Source: Candidatus Binatia bacterium (GTDB taxonomy: Bacteria; Desulfobacterota; Binatia; UBA12015). From it: a DNA stretch of 64,000 bases. The stretch lies in NCBI GenBank assembly GCA_029243485.1, contig JAQWRY010000079.1:62001-126000 (forward strand), in the 5' to 3' direction. The position numbers and the translations under genes are program-made. The notes below the pieces were generated by a model. The model ran no database searches, was not told the DNA's origin, and saw only the letters and a list, made by a program, of their open reading frames with translations. Shown in pieces: positions 24,139-33,079 of the stretch; position 1 is the first letter of the stretch, and each line of letters opens with the position of its first letter.

Positions 24139-27100
24139 CTAATCGTTGCCGAACTGCCAACGCAGCCCAACCGTCGTCGCGATCCTCTCTGCCTCTTCAC
24201 GACACGACTTGGCCTTCTTCTTCTCGCCACGCTCTGTGAAGAGTCGGGCGCGACCAGCCAGGGCGGCCGCAAGCGTCGTCGGCGCATGAATCTCCCGTGC
24301 AACGCGAACCGCTTCCTCGAAGAAATAGTCCGCGCGCTTCCAGGACTCCGAGCCCTGCCGCAACGCGACGGCCCCGAGATCGCACGCGCTTTGTGCGCGA
24401 CGTAGGCGACCGCCCGCGCGACGACGCACACTCTGCGCCACCCGCTCGGCGCGTTCCGGATGCCCCGCGGCGAGAAAGGCCTCCGTGGCGAACCGCAGCA
24501 ACTGCTGTACGCCCACGGCCCCTGCCAGGTTGTTCTCGATCTGCCGGAGAAGGCGCTCCTCGTCGATCGGCGCGCCCTCGCCTCGCCCGGCGAGAACCGC
24601 GATCGCCGCCAGGTTCGGAACGCCACTGCTCGAACCCACGGCGGCGGCCAGCGCCAACCCCTCCTGCGCCCACGCCAAGGCCGCTGCGAGTTCCCCGCGC
24701 AACAGGAACACCGACGCGACTTGACCCGCCGATATGATCCGCACGGTCCGATTCCCGATTTCGGTCGCCAGATGAAAAGTCTTAGTCGACGCCGTCAGAG
24801 CGTCGTCGAGATCGTCACGGTAAAGCAACACCGCGTCACGGGAGACTCGCGCCCCAAGCAAGAGGTCCGGAACGTGCTCGGCCTGCGGAGTCGCGGTAAC
24901 CTCGGCGAGCACGGTCTCCGCGCATTCCGCAGCCTCCTCGAACCGGCCGTCGAGGGCGTACCCCACCGCGAGGCCGCGGCGAACGCGCCAGGACCATTCC
25001 ACCTCTTCCTCCGCTTGCGCGAGGTCGCGCGCGCGGATCAGACGCTCGAGGCCACTCACGTGCTGTTCGGCCGCACCGAACACGCGCAAGAGTCCCTGGA
25101 ACGTCTCGACCGCGATACGATCCTGAGCGGTCCCCACGAGATCCAAAAGGCGCTCGATCTCCCCTCCCATCGACTCGATCGCAGCTTCCCTCCCTTCGCC
25201 GAAAACCGCGGCGAGCCAGAGGAGTCGAGAGCCCGAGAATAGCGCCTGCCGGGCCGCGCCCTCACCCGCCGTATCGCGACGCGCGATCTCCCACGCCTGC
25301 CGGTACAGGTGCGCGGCCGTTCCGTACGCGGGAACGGTCTCCGCGTGGGCCGCCGCGGCAAAGAGGTGGGTGAGGGCCTCGTCGTGGCTCTCTCCGTTGC
25401 GAAAGTGGTACGCGAGCACCGCGCTGTGTTCACCCGGGTCGGTCCCATGGCGACGCGAGAGAGCCTCCGCGATTGCGTTGTGCAGCTGGCGGCGCTGCTT
25501 CAAGAGCAGTCCTTGATAGGCGACCTCTTGCGTGAGGGCCTGCTCGAAGACGAAGTCGTGCGCCGCGCCGCTCGTCGAGAGCCGCACGACTCCCGCGTCG
25601 CGAAGCGCTGCCAGGCGATCGCCGACTTCGATCCCGTCGGGCGACAGCAGCTCCTCCACCAGAGGCGCGGAGAAGTGCCGCCCCATCACGGAAGCCACCT
25701 GAAGTACGCGCTTCTCCTCCAGCGGCAGTCGATCGAGGCGAGCTGCGACGATCTCGTGCACCGTAACGGGCACCTCGATCTCGGCGAAGGAGCGCGCCGT
25801 GAACGTCCCGTCCCCCGCCTCGACCAGCACACCCGTTTCGAGCAACTCTCGCGTGACCTCTTCTGTGAAGAACGGATTCCCTTCCGCCCGATCGTGCACG
25901 GCGTCGACGATCTCGGGCGGGGCTTCGCCGCCGGCAATCGCGTGCACGATCGCCGCCGTCTGTTTCCGCGTGAGACTCGCCAGCTCGATTTCTTCGACGT
26001 CCTGGTCGTGCACCCAGGGGACCGGGGAGTCCGGGCGATAGGTGCAGACGACCAGTACGGCCGCCGCCGGGGTTCGCTCAACCAAGACGCCCAGGAGTTC
26101 CTTGGACGCCTCGTCGATCCACTGCGCATCCTCCAACACGAGGACCAAGGGGGCACTCCGGCTCTCCGCCAGAAGGAAGCCGGTGACCGAGTCGATCGTC
26201 GCGTGACGAAGCTCAGCCCCCTCGAGCCCAGTGGAGCCGCCGGCGTCGAGTCCCAACAGACGCGCCAACGTGGCCGATGCGTCGCCGGAGGGGGCTCCCG
26301 CCTCGGCGAAAACCCGGCTCAGCCGCGCCGCAGCCGCGTCTTCGCTTCCGCCTTCCGGAAGGACGTGGCTCTTGAGCGAACCGACGAAGGGGCGGTACGC
26401 TGCCCGTTGCGTGTACGAGAAGCACTGGGCCCAGAGCACCGTGCTGGACCGCGCTTCCAAACGCCGAACGAACTCGGTGACGAGCCGTGACGCACCGACC
26501 CCGGCGTGACCGACGATCCCGACCGCTTGCCCCTGCCCCTGCGCCGCGCGCTCGAAGGCGGCCTCCAGACACGCAAGCTCCTCTTCGCGCCCGACGAACA
26601 GAGCCGAGCGCAACGCGCGCCCCGACAGCGGCGTCTTCGTCGCGAGCGCGCTTTCGACCTCGAACACGGCGACGGGCAGCGCCTTGCCCCGAATCGCTTG
26701 TGGGCCGAGAGGCCGGAGTTCGAAGTGCTCGGCAACGAGACGTTGGAGCGACTCGCTGAGAAGAATCGCTCCCGGGCGCGCGAGTGACTGCAGCCGCGCC
26801 GCGAGGTTCGTCGTATCGCCGATCGCCGTGTAGTCCAGCTTGAGATCGCCGCCGACCGTGCCGACGATCACGGGCCCGGTGTTGAGTCCGATCCGCGCGG
26901 TCAGAGCCGGACGGCCTTCGGCTCGCAGCGAATCACTGAGCGAAGCGAGCCCGTCGCGCACCGCGATTGCCGCCTGAACCGAGCGCATCGGCGCGTCCTC
27001 GTGTGCGAGCGGCGCGCCGAACAAGGCCATGACTCCGTCGCCGGCGATCTGATTCACGAGACCTTCCGCACGACCGACTTCGTGAAACACCACCGCTAGG

Positions 27101-27468
27101 TAGCGATCGAGAAGATCGCGGAACTCCTCCGGGTCCATCGCTTCCGCAATCGAAGCGGAACTCACCAGATCACAGAACAGGACCGACACCTGTTTGCGCT
27201 CGCCATCGATTCGCCCGCGCGTCGCGAGAACCTTCTCCGCGAGACCGGCCGGCATCTGCTCACGCAAGCGACGGAACGAACTGGCCAGCGCGACGCGACG
27301 CTCATCGGTACCGATGCCGTCCCCGCATGCGGGGCAGTAGACGAACGTCAGATGGACCGGCTGCTCGCATGCCCCGCAGCGCCCCGCGATCTCGACGGCG
27401 CACGTGGGGCACTTCTCCACGTCGGCGGGGATCGTGGATCCGCAGCCCAAACAGGTGAGTTCCGACAT
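24139..27468 (-). CDS. Class III adenylate/guanylate cyclase-AAA ATPase-TPR protein
   Basis: 1109 residues, start ATG 27468 (MSELTCLGCG) with GGAAGG 6 bases upstream. Order: a double zinc ribbon (CxxC pairs, residues 6-48); a class III cyclase domain (about 90-245) with both metal Asp (D100 in LFCDLVSS, D144 in AGDGVMALFG) and LDYTAIGDTTNLAARL; an AAA/STAND ATPase domain (about 290-600) with Walker B LVLVLEDAQWID; then helical TPR-like repeats to the end. The P-loop reads GHAGVGASRL, with Ala replacing the usual Lys, so ATP binding may be impaired. It probably makes cAMP in response to a signal sensed by the TPR region. Confidence 0.92.
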   Translation of the reverse strand: MSELTCLGCGSTIPADVEKCPTCAVEIAGRCGACEQPVHLTFVYCPACGDGIGTDERRVALASSFRRLREQMPAGLAEKVLATRGRIDGERKQVSVLFCDLVSSASIAEAMDPEEFRDLLDRYLAVVFHEVGRAEGLVNQIAGDGVMALFGAPLAHEDAPMRSVQAAIAVRDGLASLSDSLRAEGRPALTARIGLNTGPVIVGTVGGDLKLDYTAIGDTTNLAARLQSLARPGAILLSESLQRLVAEHFELRPLGPQAIRGKALPVAVFEVESALATKTPLSGRALRSALFVGREEELACLEAAFERAAQGQGQAVGIVGHAGVGASRLVTEFVRRLEARSSTVLWAQCFSYTQRAAYRPFVGSLKSHVLPEGGSEDAAAARLSRVFAEAGAPSGDASATLARLLGLDAGGSTGLEGAELRHATIDSVTGFLLAESRSAPLVLVLEDAQWIDEASKELLGVLVERTPAAAVLVVCTYRPDSPVPWVHDQDVEEIELASLTRKQTAAIVHAIAGGEAPPEIVDAVHDRAEGNPFFTEEVTRELLETGVLVEAGDGTFTARSFAEIEVPVTVHEIVAARLDRLPLEEKRVLQVASVMGRHFSAPLVEELLSPDGIEVGDRLAALRDAGVVRLSTSGAAHDFVFEQALTQEVAYQGLLLKQRRQLHNAIAEALSRRHGTDPGEHSAVLAYHFRNGESHDEALTHLFAAAAHAETVPAYGTAAHLYRQAWEIARRDTAGEGAARQALFSGSRLLWLAAVFGEGREAAIESMGGEIERLLDLVGTAQDRIAVETFQGLLRVFGAAEQHVSGLERLIRARDLAQAEEEVEWSWRVRRGLAVGYALDGRFEEAAECAETVLAEVTATPQAEHVPDLLLGARVSRDAVLLYRDDLDDALTASTKTFHLATEIGNRTVRIISAGQVASVFLLRGELAAALAWAQEGLALAAAVGSSSGVPNLAAIAVLAGRGEGAPIDEERLLRQIENNLAGAVGVQQLLRFATEAFLAAGHPERAERVAQSVRRRAGGRLRRAQSACDLGAVALRQGSESWKRADYFFEEAVRVAREIHAPTTLAAALAGRARLFTERGEKKKAKSCREEAERIATTVGLRWQFGND

Positions 27469-27565
27469 GGCCATCCTTCCGGGCGGATCATAGAGCCATT
27501 CGGCTTCCAGCCGAAGAGCGCTCCACGACCGGGCCTTCCGGCCCGGGCCCGGTTGACAGGGTCCG

Positions 27566-27745
27566 CGGAGGTTCGCTAGCACCAACGACAAGATCGCGTA
27601 GGCGTGAGGGAAGCCGGTGAAACACCGGCACGGCTCCCGCCACTGTAAGTCGGAACGAAAGCGCACGAAGGCCACTGTCCCCGCAGGGATGGGAAGGCAG
27701 CGCGTAGTAGGTCGCCGACGAGTCAGGAAACCTAGCCCACGCGGC
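27566..27745 (+). ncRNA. Cobalamin riboswitch
   Basis: RF00174-type AdoCbl riboswitch. The core reads GAGGGAAGCCGGTGAAACACC (27606 onward), then CGGCTCCCGCCACTGTAA with the B12-box-like GCCACTGT, and the 3-prime section GAGTCAGGAAACCT. It directly precedes a BtuB-like receptor gene and so should repress it when cobalamin is plentiful. A small hairpin around 27784-27804 (CTAT-loop-ATAG, TCC/GGA) could hide the ribosome binding site as an expression platform, which is inference. Ends are approximate. Confidence 0.95.
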
Positions 27746-27807
27746 CGATGCTCGAGGTTCTCCGGGATGTGAGGACGCGGGGTCTCCTATCTTCATAGAA
27801 GGACGAA

Positions 27808-27831
27808 ATGGCCGACCGGGCATCCGCTTGA
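27808..27831 (+). CDS. Possible 7-residue leader peptide before btuB
   Basis: ATG at 27808 follows GAAGGACGAA and encodes MADRASA, stopping at TGA that overlaps the TTG start of the receptor (TTGA). It lies right after the riboswitch. It could couple translation of the receptor to riboswitch-controlled initiation, or be chance. Confidence 0.35.
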   Translation: MADRASA

Positions 27832-29927
27832 GGCGGCGAGCTTTTCTGGCGTGCGCTCTGGTGTGCGCCACACTGACACTCGGGCCTCGCCCCGTGCTCG
27901 CGCAGGACGAGGCAGACGCCGCCGCAGTTGCCACGCCGGACGTCGCGCAACCAGAGTCCGAGCCCGTGCGCGAAGTCCCGATCGACATCGAGAATCTCGA
28001 GGTGACGGAAACCTCGCTGCGCACCGTCACCGATGCGACCGCGTTTGCGACCGTGATCGAAGTCACCCAACAGGCGGAAGAGTTCAAGACCGTCGCCCAG
28101 GTCTTGTCCGAGACGGCCGGACTTCAGGTGCGCCGGTTCGGCGGGCTCGGCGATTTCGCAACGGTATCCGTCCGCGGTGCGACGTCCGGGCAGGTCCGAA
28201 TCTACTTCGACGATGTCCCGCTCACCCGCGCGCGAAGTGAAACCGTGAATCTCGCGGGCCTCCCGCTCGAGCCACTCCAGCGAATTGAGGTCTACCGGGG
28301 AGCGACGCCCTTGTCGGTCGGCGCCTCCGCACTGGGCGGCGTGATCAACCTGGTCACGAAGGATCCGGGGGAGACCCCCTCCCTTTCGTTTCTCGCCGGC
28401 GGCGGATCGTTCGGAACGAGGCAGGCCAGTCTCACCGCGTCCGGAATGCTCGGCGACTGGGGGCTTTTGGGCTCGTTCAACTATCTAGGTTCCGAAGGCG
28501 ACTTCCCGTTCGACGATGACAACGGCACTCCCGTGAACCCACACGACGACGAGCGGGTCCGACGCGAGAACAACGCGTTCAACTCGGGCGACGTCATCCT
28601 GAAGGTGGTTCGCGAGGTGTCTGCCCGGTCGAGAGTCGTCGCGATGAACGAGTTCTTCATCAACGACCAGGGCGTGCCCGGCATCGGCTCGTTCCAATCG
28701 AAAGAAGCGAACCTCTTCGAACTACGAAACCTGAGTTACCTGCGATTCGAGGGCGATGGCCTCGAGAATCTACCGACCGAGTTCGATGCCACCCTCTTCT
28801 TCATCTACGAGGAAGAACGCTTCGAGGATCCGAAGGGAGACATCGGCCTCGGGCGACGGAACACGCGCTTCCGCACGTTCGCTTCGGGAGCGAACGTACA
28901 CGGCGCCGAGTCCGTCGGCCGTCATCTCCTCGAGGGCCGCATCGACCTCGGCGGAGAAGTGCTCGTACCGCGCGACCTGATCACGCCCGACCCGATGGAC
29001 GTCACCCAGTCGCGGATCTCGTTCGACGTCGGCGTCGGCGACACGATGAGCCTGCTCGACGACGATCTCCTCGTCGATGGGCAGTTCCGCTACGAGCTCG
29101 TGCACGACGACTTCGGTGGCTTCGTCGACGCGACCGGCCAAGTGACCGACGACTCGAGCGGCGGCACCCAGCATCTCTTCACGCCGCGCATCGGCGCCCG
29201 CTACACCATCCAGCCCTGGCTCTGGGCCAAGACGAATGCAGGCAGGTACGGACGCTTCCCGAATTTCTCCGAACTCTTCGGCAACCGCGGCTCGATCGTC
29301 GGCAACCCCGACCTCGTTCCGGAAAAGGGCTGGAACGTCGACTTCGGATTCGACGCCCAGCAGGCTACGTGGGGCCCGCTCGACGCACTCCGCGCCGAGG
29401 CCGTCTTCTTCTGGCGCGACGTCGACGACCTGATCCTCTTCATACAGAACTCCCAGCGCACGTCCGTACCGCGAAACATCGGAAGCGCCGAGATCTGGGG
29501 CATCGAGCTTTCGACCGCGTTCCAAGCCTGGGAGCGCATCGGCTTCACCGCCAATTACACCTACCAGGATGCGCGCGACCGCAGCGCCGCCCCCTCGCGC
29601 AACGGCAAACAGCTCCCCGGCATTCCGCAGAACGAGGCCTACACACGAATCGACTACCACCCGTGGGACCTCGTTCCCTTCTACGAACTCTCGTTCACAT
29701 CAGGGAACTTCCTCGATCGCGCGAACCTCATCGACGTACCGAACCGGCTCCTGCACTCCCTTGGGCTCCAGTACGCGCTCTCTTCGATGCCTCTCACGTT
29801 CACGTTCGAGGCGAGAAACATCACCGACAATCAGATCGAGGACGTCGCCGGCTTCCCCCTGCCGGGACGCTCGTTGTTTGGAACCGTGGCTTACCGATGG
29901 AACGGTGCCCCGCAGGAGAATTCGTGA
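27828..29927 (+). CDS. btuB: TonB-dependent cobalamin receptor (BtuB-like)
   Basis: 699 residues from a TTG start; a signal peptide ends in PVLAQ. A TonB-box-like segment near IENLEVTET precedes the plug (LSETAGLQVRRFGGLGDFAT, SVRGATSGQVRIYFDDVPLT, IEVYRGATPLSVGASALGGV) and the barrel, which ends GTVAYRWNGAPQENS. The upstream cobalamin riboswitch identifies the ligand as a corrinoid with good confidence. The downstream lipoprotein overlaps its stop (GTGA). Barrel length is slightly above that of E. coli BtuB. Confidence 0.93.
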   Translation: MRRRAFLACALVCATLTLGPRPVLAQDEADAAAVATPDVAQPESEPVREVPIDIENLEVTETSLRTVTDATAFATVIEVTQQAEEFKTVAQVLSETAGLQVRRFGGLGDFATVSVRGATSGQVRIYFDDVPLTRARSETVNLAGLPLEPLQRIEVYRGATPLSVGASALGGVINLVTKDPGETPSLSFLAGGGSFGTRQASLTASGMLGDWGLLGSFNYLGSEGDFPFDDDNGTPVNPHDDERVRRENNAFNSGDVILKVVREVSARSRVVAMNEFFINDQGVPGIGSFQSKEANLFELRNLSYLRFEGDGLENLPTEFDATLFFIYEEERFEDPKGDIGLGRRNTRFRTFASGANVHGAESVGRHLLEGRIDLGGEVLVPRDLITPDPMDVTQSRISFDVGVGDTMSLLDDDLLVDGQFRYELVHDDFGGFVDATGQVTDDSSGGTQHLFTPRIGARYTIQPWLWAKTNAGRYGRFPNFSELFGNRGSIVGNPDLVPEKGWNVDFGFDAQQATWGPLDALRAEAVFFWRDVDDLILFIQNSQRTSVPRNIGSAEIWGIELSTAFQAWERIGFTANYTYQDARDRSAAPSRNGKQLPGIPQNEAYTRIDYHPWDLVPFYELSFTSGNFLDRANLIDVPNRLLHSLGLQYALSSMPLTFTFEARNITDNQIEDVAGFPLPGRSLFGTVAYRWNGAPQENS

Positions 29928-31078
29928 AGCACTTCAGCAATCCGACCAAATTCATGGCTACACTCGGCCTGACCGCACTCCTCGCCGCTTGCGGTGGCGG
30001 CGGGAGCGACGACGGCGGTGGCGGCGAGAACCCGAACCCGACGGCCACGCCGGCTCCGGCCCCGAGCCCGACTCTCGAGCGAGTCGCCGTAGTTCTCACC
30101 ACCGACTTCACCAGCAGCTCGTTCGCAACGCTGCCCGTCAGCAACCCCACGTCCGTCACGACCGACGACCGCACCTTGCACAGCGATTCCATCGCGCGCG
30201 CCCACGGGTCCGTCTTGTACGTCATCAACCGATTCGGCGCGGACAACATCCAGGCCCTCGACGGAACGAACGACTACACCACGCTTTGGCAGTGCTCCGT
30301 CGGCAACGGCAAGAATCCGCAGGACATCGTCGTGCTCGGCGACAAAGGCTACGTCGCTCTGTACGCCGGCGGCGTCGCGGTCGTGAACCTGCGTCCCAGC
30401 CAGGACTGCTCAGACTTCGTGATTCAGGAGATCGACCTCTCCTCCCTCGCCGATGCCGATGGGTTTCCGGAGGCCAATCGAATGGTGATCACCAATGGGC
30501 TGCTCTACGTGAGCCTGCAACGCCTCGACAACTTCGTCCCGACCGCGACGAGCATGCTCGCCGTCATCGACACCGACACCGATGAGCTCATCGACAGCAT
30601 CGAACTCTCAGCTCCGAACCCGTTCGCCGAGACGAAGGGACTCCTTCTCGACCCGGACGGCAAGATCCTGGTTGCGGAGGTCGGCGACTTCGGCGCGTTG
30701 GACGGCGGCATCGAGCGCATCGACCCGGTCACCGCCACAGCAGAGGGACACTTCATCACCGAGGCGGAACTCGGCGGCAACATTGTCGACTTCACCCTCG
30801 TTTCCGACACCCGCGGCTACGCCGTCGTCTCCGACGCCGACTTCAACAACAGCCTCGTGCGCTTCAATCCTTCCACCGGGGAACTCGTCTCGACGCTGGC
30901 GACGGGCGCGGCCTACCTGCCCGACGTGGAGTACGATTTGGTCACCGATCAGCTCTTCCTCGCGAGCCAAGACTTCACGAATCCAGGCATCCGGGTGTTC
31001 GCCGCCGACGACTCCGAAGTGACGTCATCCCCGATCGACACCGGCCTACCCCCGTTCAACATCAACTTCATCGAGTAA
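29924..31078 (+). CDS. Beta-propeller surface lipoprotein, BtuG-like candidate
   Basis: 384 residues from GTG 29924, which overlaps the btuB stop as GTGA. A signal peptide ends in the lipobox LLAAC (Cys 23), followed by GGGGSDDGGGG and a Pro/Thr linker, typical of surface-exposed lipoproteins. The rest repeats a propeller pattern (GSVLYVINRFGADNIQALDG, NPQDIVVLGDKGYVALYAGG, NRMVITNGLLYVSLQRLDN, ETKGLLLDPDGKILVAEVGD, VEYDLVTDQLFLASQD). By position, lipidation and fold it resembles Bacteroides BtuG, a propeller that captures B12 and passes it to BtuB. That role is inferred; sequence identity to BtuG was not tested. Confidence 0.85.
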   Translation: MKHFSNPTKFMATLGLTALLAACGGGGSDDGGGGENPNPTATPAPAPSPTLERVAVVLTTDFTSSSFATLPVSNPTSVTTDDRTLHSDSIARAHGSVLYVINRFGADNIQALDGTNDYTTLWQCSVGNGKNPQDIVVLGDKGYVALYAGGVAVVNLRPSQDCSDFVIQEIDLSSLADADGFPEANRMVITNGLLYVSLQRLDNFVPTATSMLAVIDTDTDELIDSIELSAPNPFAETKGLLLDPDGKILVAEVGDFGALDGGIERIDPVTATAEGHFITEAELGGNIVDFTLVSDTRGYAVVSDADFNNSLVRFNPSTGELVSTLATGAAYLPDVEYDLVTDQLFLASQDFTNPGIRVFAADDSEVTSSPIDTGLPPFNINFIE

Positions 31079-31092
31079 CCGGAACGAGCCGT

Positions 31093-31125
31093 GGGGGGGC
31101 TTCGGGCGACACGCCCAGGCCCCCC
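31093..31125 (+). terminator. GC-rich hairpin terminator after cobalamin-uptake genes
   Basis: Nested stem GGGGGG...GGGCG / CGCCC...CCCCCC with an ACA loop, starting 14 bases after the lipoprotein stop. It has no U-tract. It would end the riboswitch-btuB-lipoprotein transcript before the next gene. Confidence 0.6.
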
Positions 31126-31252
31126 GCGTGCGAAAACCATCAAACTTTCGAGCCCTCCCGGCGTCTCAAAAAAGATCAGGTTGAAAACAAGCTGGAACAG
31201 CCCGTAAGCTCCCGACGGCGGTCGTGATACATCGGCCGATCAGGGGGCCCCG

Positions 31253-33079
31253 ATGACGCGTCGCATTTTCTCATTTTCCACGCCAGCATTGCTGGCGATC
31301 TGCCTTTTCCTCACCGCAGGCTGCGGCAGCGACGCTACCAGCGGTGTGGGTAGGAGCACCGGGCCCACGGAGCCCCCGACCGAGCCGGAACCGCCCGTCG
31401 AGCCTCCCCCTGGAGAGCCCTCCTGCAGCACGGGTGAGGTATTCGGAAGCACGTTCAAGGCGATCCAGGCCAACATCTTCGAGCAGCGCGGCTGCACGCA
31501 GCAGGTCTGCCACGGCAGCTCCGCCGCCGGGGGTCTCGACCTGAGCCCGGACGTGGCCTACCAGAACCTCTTCCAGGTGGACTCCGTCGGCAGTCGCTGG
31601 CGACTCATCGAGCCCGGCGACAAGGACCGCAGCCACCTTTGGCTGAAGGTCGCCGCGAAGCTCGATCCGAGCATCACCGTTGCGGGCGCCACGATGCCCA
31701 GCGGGCTCCCGCCCATCTCGGAGGACGAGCTCGAAGCCCTTCGTCTTTGGATTTACGCCGGTGCTCCGGAAAACGCGACGGTCCTCGGCACCGAGGACCT
31801 GCTCGGCGCCTGCCTCCCGGAGATCAAGCCGATCATCGTCGAGCCCCTCGACCCGCCCGCCGCCGGCGAGGGAATCCAGTTCGTCCTTCCCCCCGTTCTG
31901 CTGAAGGCATCGAGCGAGCACGAGATCTGTTTCGCGACGCACTACGACTTCACGGATCAGGTTCCCGACTGGGCGATCGATCCCACGGGTCTGTACTTCC
32001 GCTTCTCCGGTCAGGAGCTCCGCCAGGATCCGCAGAGCCATCACCTCGTGTTGATCCACGCGGACTTCGATCCCGACACCAGCGTGGACCATCCCAGTTT
32101 CGGCACCTGGACCTGCGGCGGCGGCGCCTCCCACAGCGACGTGTGTGATCCCCTCGACCTCGGATCGTGCGGGGACGACGGCTACTGCCACTCCGAGATC
32201 GACCCGGTCTCCATCGGCTGCATCGGGTACGGACCGCCCGGCGGCGGCTTCGGGATCACCGCCCAGCAGATCGGTGGTGCACAAGAAGCGCAGGCATTCA
32301 TTGAGTTCCGCGAAGGCGTGTTCGGCCAGATGCCTCTGCGCGGGATCGCGTACTGGAGCTCGCACGCCTTCAACCTGACGAACGAAGACACCCTACTCAA
32401 CGGCCGCATCAACTTCCCGTTCGCAGCAGAACAGACCTTCCCTCTACAGCAGATCTTCAACGTCGAAGCGGTATTCAGTCCGACGGCAGCGCCCTACACC
32501 GAGCAGACCATCTGCAACTCCGAGCAGCTCCCGCAGGGCGCGCGACTCTTCGGGCTCACGTCCCACACCCACGAGAAGGGAAAGTACTTCTGGGCCGAAC
32601 TCCCCGACGGGACGATGATCTACGAGAACTTCATCTACAACGACCCTGTCAAGCAGTTCTTCAGCCCGGAGCTCGAGTTCGACTCTGAAGATCCGGCCGA
32701 CCGCCGCATTCGCTACTGCGCGCGGTACAACAACGGCATGAACGCCGACGGCTCTCCGAACCCCGAACTGGTCACCCGCTCGTCTCGCGTCCCCGAGAGC
32801 GCGCGACAGACGTTCGGCGCGTGTGAGCCGGTTGCCTGCGCGGCCGGGAACATCGGCGCGCCGTGTTCAGGAACCGGCGACGATGCCGCCTGCGACTCCA
32901 CCCCGGGCGCCAGCGACGGCTTCTGCGACGCCTGCAACATCACCGGCGGGGAGAGCACCGAGAACGAGATGTTCATCCTCATCGGGCAGTACTTCATCGA
33001 CCCGGCGTTCCCTCAGCCCTCGACCGACGGTCCCGTCTTCGCGGGCCTGGCTTCGGTGCGTAGTACCTCCGGCGATTAG
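31253..33079 (+). CDS. PHM-like copper type II monooxygenase lipoprotein with Cys-His module
   Basis: 608 residues. Signal peptide with lipobox LTAGC (Cys 24) and a Pro/Glu linker. Residues 58-190 hold an atypical haem-like site CTQQVCH (C81, C86, H87) and GGLDLSPDVAYQNLF, as in myxobacterial secreted proteins. Residues 200-600 match the fold of peptidylglycine monooxygenase and DBH: H263-H264 (QSHHLVLIHAD), H371 (SSHAFNL), H438 and H440 (SHTHEKGKYF) and M573 (NEMFILIG) fit the six copper ligands (two sites) of PHM in order. A Cys-rich insert lies at 524-561. The substrate is unknown. It follows the cobalamin unit but is separated by a hairpin. Confidence 0.8.
   Translation: MTRRIFSFSTPALLAICLFLTAGCGSDATSGVGRSTGPTEPPTEPEPPVEPPPGEPSCSTGEVFGSTFKAIQANIFEQRGCTQQVCHGSSAAGGLDLSPDVAYQNLFQVDSVGSRWRLIEPGDKDRSHLWLKVAAKLDPSITVAGATMPSGLPPISEDELEALRLWIYAGAPENATVLGTEDLLGACLPEIKPIIVEPLDPPAAGEGIQFVLPPVLLKASSEHEICFATHYDFTDQVPDWAIDPTGLYFRFSGQELRQDPQSHHLVLIHADFDPDTSVDHPSFGTWTCGGGASHSDVCDPLDLGSCGDDGYCHSEIDPVSIGCIGYGPPGGGFGITAQQIGGAQEAQAFIEFREGVFGQMPLRGIAYWSSHAFNLTNEDTLLNGRINFPFAAEQTFPLQQIFNVEAVFSPTAAPYTEQTICNSEQLPQGARLFGLTSHTHEKGKYFWAELPDGTMIYENFIYNDPVKQFFSPELEFDSEDPADRRIRYCARYNNGMNADGSPNPELVTRSSRVPESARQTFGACEPVACAAGNIGAPCSGTGDDAACDSTPGASDGFCDACNITGGESTENEMFILIGQYFIDPAFPQPSTDGPVFAGLASVRSTSGD

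Follow-up and report, generated by a model that had tools for sequence, protein, structure and literature searches.

The stretch of DNA analyzed here, referred to as the window, comprises 64,000 nucleotides of a contig (JAQWRY010000079.1) from a Candidatus Binatia bacterium, and it carries a cobalamin riboswitch followed by the genes for a BtuB-like TonB-dependent receptor and a propeller lipoprotein (Table 1). Most likely, these two genes constitute a unit for capturing and importing vitamin B12 (corrinoid), with the lipoprotein being a divergent BtuG-like lid on BtuB. Like BtuG1, BtuG2 and BtuG3 of Bacteroides thetaiotaomicron (PF16819/DUF5074; PDB 8bai, 8bmx, 8okv, 8p97 and 3dsm), the window protein is a predicted seven-blade propeller lipoprotein whose gene lies directly past a BtuB-like receptor gene and a cobalamin riboswitch, and the BtuG proteins are its nearest neighbors by both profile and fold. 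Unlike them, it appears to come from a different phylum and has sister families with an EF-hand/dockerin-like N-terminus.

A search of the PDB with the single lipoprotein sequence (phmmer) returned nothing relevant, and a profile of ten homologs gave weak matches (E 0.04-0.4), 9/9 of which were BtuG-type chains. When the profile was enlarged to 45 sequences (the window protein and the translated loci of relatives), the E values of the BtuG chains in an hmmsearch against 177,635 PDB sequences dropped to between 3.3e-7 and 8e-6, and no other entry did better than 0.25. The same alignment served for structure prediction. The model folded from the single sequence was not usable (predicted local distance difference test score, pLDDT, 36.5), but AlphaFold2 with the 45-row alignment yielded a pLDDT of 89.9, with residues 54-384 mostly above 95, and its strand list was read as seven blades. 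An earlier note on this DNA had made its proposal depend on a propeller fold, which the model predicts, and had suggested comparing such a model with BtuG. The top 12 Foldseek matches in the PDB were all BtuG1/2/3 (E 1e-14 to 3.4e-13; template modeling score, by target, 0.73-0.80), followed by 1l0q (1.6e-11), XusB (2.5e-9) and YncE (8e-9). Similarly, the top 11 VIA-align matches were all BtuG (Z 30.7-32.4; root-mean-square deviation 2.6-2.9 over 299-304 residues; 14-19% identity). Next came the archaeal YVTN propeller 1l0q (Z 29.5; deviation 2.5 over 284 residues), with BtuK1, XusB and YncE at Z 25-26. As 1l0q trails the lowest BtuG row by just 1.2 Z, a modest gap, we base the claim of BtuG-likeness on the combination of profile, fold and context. 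Within the propeller, loops of the b-c/d-a face are more conserved than those of the other face (0.569 versus 0.466; p 0.0001 by permutation), most clearly in blades 2 to 5, in a comparison that hangs on our own assignment of loops and strands and in which the strands are equally conserved (0.570). This is consistent with the b-c/d-a side being the ligand face.

With regard to context, the riboswitch match spans the full RF00174 model (1-189; E 9e-21) and is the sole one in the 6.5-Mb host genome. The earlier note had recognized the riboswitch, the receptor and the lipobox-bearing propeller correctly, although it placed the riboswitch start 13 bases too late. The receptor gene begins 75 nucleotides past the riboswitch, and at its junction with the lipoprotein gene, ATTCGTGAAG, the GTG start of the latter overlaps the TGA stop of the former (GTGA), as that note had also read; close homologs have ATGA and TGATG at the same junction. 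The N-terminus of the lipoprotein, MKHFSNPTKFMATLGLTALLAAC, contains a lipobox ending at Cys23. As in E. coli BtuB and B. thetaiotaomicron BtuB1, the receptor is a TonB-dependent protein made of a Plug domain (58 bits) and a barrel (130 bits), and its gene lies under a cobalamin riboswitch, an arrangement shared by relatives. BtuB1 and BtuB3 are among its best solved matches; the nearest solved B12 receptors are B. thetaiotaomicron BtuB1 (E 1.9e-15) and E. coli BtuB (about 1e-13).

The propeller family gave full-length matches in 9 of the 14 genomes of the host's family, and it was found in 42/148 genomes of the host's class and in 34/395 genomes sampled from its phylum. Thirty loci were read, of which five were cut by contig ends and 25 were informative on an upstream riboswitch. 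The receptor gene lies directly 5' of the propeller gene on the same strand in 24 of the 30 loci, and in one further locus a riboswitch sits between the two genes. RF00174 was found 5' on the same strand in 21 of the 25 informative loci, compared to a chance adjacency of about 0.1% per locus (a rough estimate from one to a few riboswitches per several-Mb genome), bearing out the expectation that the pair is kept beside cobalamin riboswitches elsewhere. Nine loci show the order riboswitch-A-B-BtuB-propeller, A and B being two further proteins described below. In one of these, L156, the run extends into Peripla_BP_2, FecCD and ATP-binding cassette (ABC) genes, corresponding to BtuF, BtuC and BtuD, and L146 has genes of these three clusters downstream. 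Three members of the host's family without the propeller (L057, L058 and L060) have the riboswitch directly 5' of a different receptor, 24-30% identical. Other arrangements were also seen: at L046:4497-9065 BtuB and the propeller are divergently oriented, each with its own cobalamin riboswitch, and the receptor frame is split into two open reading frames; and at L159-L161, from two other families, a receptor-propeller pair without a detectable riboswitch adjoins a selenocysteine tRNA gene.

Several observations weigh against a BtuB-BtuG assignment. The lipoprotein scored 18.3 bits (E 0.0013) against PF16819, under the gathering threshold of 27.2, and 1 of 10 close homologs matched this family at E 0.1; identity to BtuG is just 14-19%. 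The residues following Cys23 are GGGGSDDGGGG, which do not correspond to the Bacteroidota lipoprotein export signal (MKWD in BtuG2; PMC6143338), so that surface exposure would need another route. Because it lacks this signal and falls under the PF16819 cut-off, we call the lipoprotein BtuG-like rather than BtuG. The receptor, unlike BtuB, is far below the cut-off of TIGR01779 (TonB-B12; 108.6 versus 599.7 bits), which ranks it second of about 40 receptor matches in its genome, and it also resembles MxcH and PqqU, its plug half resembling MxcH, Cir and PqqU. As TIGR01779 does not single out this receptor, its identity rests on context. No riboswitch was detected in four loci with full upstream sequence (L050 and L159-L161), and a weak-threshold Rfam scan of L050 revealed none 5' of the pair. 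Finally, neither a propeller fold nor a place in a B12 operon is proof of B12 binding: the B. thetaiotaomicron propeller BtuK2 is encoded in a B12 locus, yet failed to bind cobalamin (PMC12751083).

The earlier note had described the pair as a BtuG-like system in a different phylum, possibly independently evolved. The first part holds, as a cobalamin-regulated receptor and propeller-lipoprotein pair resembling BtuB-BtuG is conserved in many related genomes, but for the second part shared ancestry of the propeller with BtuG is favored over an independent origin. This is because profile and structure searches both place BtuG nearest, and because the closest relative outside the group is a Bacteroidota-like riboswitch-BtuB-BtuG operon. 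When 84,980 genomes were searched with the window protein, a single out-of-group relative was retrieved (L022:3368-6702), with RF00174, receptor and BtuG in the same order as in the window; its BtuG matches solved BtuG3 chains at E 2e-48. The contig in question (PBYL01000192.1) is titled Thalassovita, has 35% guanine plus cytosine and carries a Bacteroidota-like operon, and is probably mis-binned or mislabeled; the host genome has 65%. In hhalign, the propeller family aligned to this BtuG at 96.6% (E 5e-10, 228 columns), versus 9.4% for the unrelated propeller A. PF16819 exceeds its cut-off in 5/198 genomes of the host's phylum, whereas in gut Bacteroidetes btuG is carried by 106/109 btuB operons (PMC6143338); this rarity, together with the host's guanine plus cytosine content and the missing export signal, is the ground on which the host is placed outside Bacteroidota. 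Convergence, in which a B12 receptor would have acquired an ordinary YncE/YVTN-type propeller separately from the origin of Bacteroides BtuG, appears unlikely. Propellers are easily recruited, 1l0q follows structurally close behind BtuG, and the best profile alignment to BtuG spans about 100 residues; however, the BtuG chains are the sole significant profile matches in the PDB set, the closest gene retrieved from outside the group is a BtuG lying in identical gene order, and the hhalign match covers 228 columns.

As to function, the receptor might import B12 while the propeller binds no corrinoid and acts as an assembly factor, plug or scaffold, as BtuK2-type propellers may. Such a role is suggested by the non-binding BtuK2, which lies in a B12 operon (PMC12751083), and by the low identity to BtuG. 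BtuK1 and BtuK2 (PDB 9s6c and 4r5o) are likewise propeller lipoproteins of B12 loci; however, the model is closer to the B12-binding BtuG1/2/3 (Z 31-32) than to BtuK1 (Z 25.9) or to 4r5o, i.e., BT1487, which has been named BtuK2 (Z 25.4; PMC12751083), and one face has the better-conserved loops, making a non-binding propeller improbable. That the pair serves another ligand (cobalt chelates, a xenosiderophore or a lower-ligand base), with cobalamin control for economy, is hardly credible: XusB (PDB 9hqk and 9hqe), a propeller lipoprotein of a TonB-dependent system that binds the siderophore ferrichrome, is also among the Foldseek matches, and the receptor has its likeness to MxcH and PqqU, but XusB is a weaker match (Z 25.7), its Foldseek E being some five orders of magnitude poorer than that of BtuG; the operons of relatives run on into BtuF/FecCD/ABC genes; and the host, with one FecCD permease in all, has no second one of this type to serve siderophores. 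Another known group, the DUF4465/BtuJ B12-binding proteins, has been reported from several phyla including Myxococcota, often near propellers of the PF16819 family (PMC13398666). These too are B12 scavenging lipoproteins outside Bacteroidota, but they have a jelly-roll fold whereas the window protein is a propeller; no DUF4465 match was obtained among the proteins scanned.

For the preferred reading, a BtuG-like lid on a BtuB-like receptor, the following mechanism is proposed. At high cellular B12, the riboswitch would presumably lower expression, and at low B12 the transcript would be freed; the receptor and the lipoprotein would then be made together by translational coupling. In BtuG2-BtuB2, the propeller is an extracellular lid with hydrogen bonds to the corrin from blades 1 to 4 (PMC10404256). 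By analogy, we infer that the lipid-anchored lipoprotein would be exposed at the cell surface as a lid on the BtuB-like barrel, where it may capture corrinoid on its loop-rich face and hand it to the receptor for import with TonB energy. A BtuF-BtuC-BtuD transporter encoded elsewhere would complete uptake.

The physiology of the host is relevant here. Both known routes of corrin-ring synthesis pass through CbiC/CobH. No match to it was found in 14/14 genomes of the host's family, while seven control genomes do match. At the same time, the host genome encodes eight B12-binding domains over the cut-off, and its single FecCD permease gene, on another contig, is flanked by genes for BtuF and an ABC ATPase (BtuD). 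Together, the missing CbiC/CobH, the B12-binding-domain proteins and the BtuFCD cluster lead us to expect that a corrinoid importer is needed.

The operon extended by proteins A and B is the newest part of the finding. Protein A (L156:3076-4461; L052:4186-5580, minus strand) is an NHL/Pizza-type secreted or lipoprotein propeller, whose gene in many cases comes first after a cobalamin riboswitch; it has no close relationship to the BtuG-like propeller. Protein B (L156:4535-5671; L154:5732-6661; DPFADAVV...LPDIVLGPPRGGG...) is encoded in riboswitch operons and frequently has a C-terminal dockerin domain. It occurs in 40/148 class genomes, 39 of which also have the propeller, an association whose independence is overstated as the genomes are related; it was not found in the host genome. 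Its top PDB match is the BtuH domain of BtuG1, a weak one (E 0.029; E 0.061 with 30 sequences). In several families (L153:9219-10493, L156:7723-8994 and L157-L161), the BtuG-like propellers carry an N-terminal EF-hand/dockerin-like module in place of the lipobox. We tentatively consider, at slightly less than an even chance, that the window pair is the simplest version of a surface B12-capture machine found throughout the phylum. Such a machine would combine BtuB, a BtuG-like propeller and the riboswitch-linked secreted proteins A and B (B perhaps being a relative of the BtuH domain). Depending on the family, it would be attached through a lipid anchor or through EF-hand/dockerin-like modules, and it would be related to the Bacteroides system through common descent or transfer.

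The hairpin past the propeller gene (Table 1) is the probable end of the transcript. The next gene (31253-33079), the product of which has a weak copper monooxygenase C-terminal match, was rejected as a member of the unit, as it lies past this strong hairpin and is not kept beside the pair in relatives. A homolog of it in genome G009 (L051:5631-10124) likewise lies behind a propeller gene, in this case that of a divergent propeller (27% identity). On the other side, the cyclase gene is transcribed away from the riboswitch; its longest-frame start at 27675 overlaps the riboswitch, but this is a mechanical call only and the true start is probably further in.

Table 1. Features of the cobalamin-linked locus and its surroundings (window positions)
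Feature	Position	Strand	Basis or remark
Adenylate/guanylate cyclase, zinc ribbon + AAA_16 ATPase + TPR	24139-27675	-	transcribed away from riboswitch
Cobalamin riboswitch aptamer (RF00174)	27553-27753	+	covariance model, 89.4 bits versus gathering score of 31.5 bits
BtuB-like TonB-dependent outer-membrane receptor, 699 amino acids, TTG start	27828-29927	+	Plug + TonB_dep_Rec_b-barrel
BtuG-like propeller lipoprotein, 384 amino acids, GTG start	29924-31078	+	lipobox, AlphaFold2, Foldseek, VIA-align, profile search
Signal peptide, lipobox LLAAC, predicted lipidated Cys23	29924-29992	+	sequence reading; lipobox-like N-termini in most same-family homologs
Beta-propeller domain, residues 54-384, seven blades by strand reading	30083-31075	+	AlphaFold2 pLDDT mostly >95
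Strong hairpin 3' of propeller gene, no T run	31088-31132	+	RNA fold -37.1 kcal/mol, z -3.25 versus shuffles

BtuG has been reported as exclusive to Bacteroidetes, which was explained as a response to competition in the gut (PMC6143338), and our literature search, which did not cover subscription papers and preprints, found no report of BtuG outside Bacteroidota. The presence of a BtuG-like gene with BtuB and a riboswitch in another, apparently unrelated phylum makes this explanation testable. The occurrence of the pair across many genera outside Bacteroidetes suggests that B12 scavenging of the BtuG kind is far more widely used than thought, and the finding predicts B12 scavenging in organisms without CbiC/CobH. 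If the phylum-wide machine of A, B, BtuB and propeller exists and is kin to the Bacteroides system, then BtuG-type capture would be neither a Bacteroidota nor a gut invention. Proteins A and B are candidates for further unrecognized B12 binders. In addition, the divergence of the family could help to show which features of a propeller are responsible for corrinoid binding.

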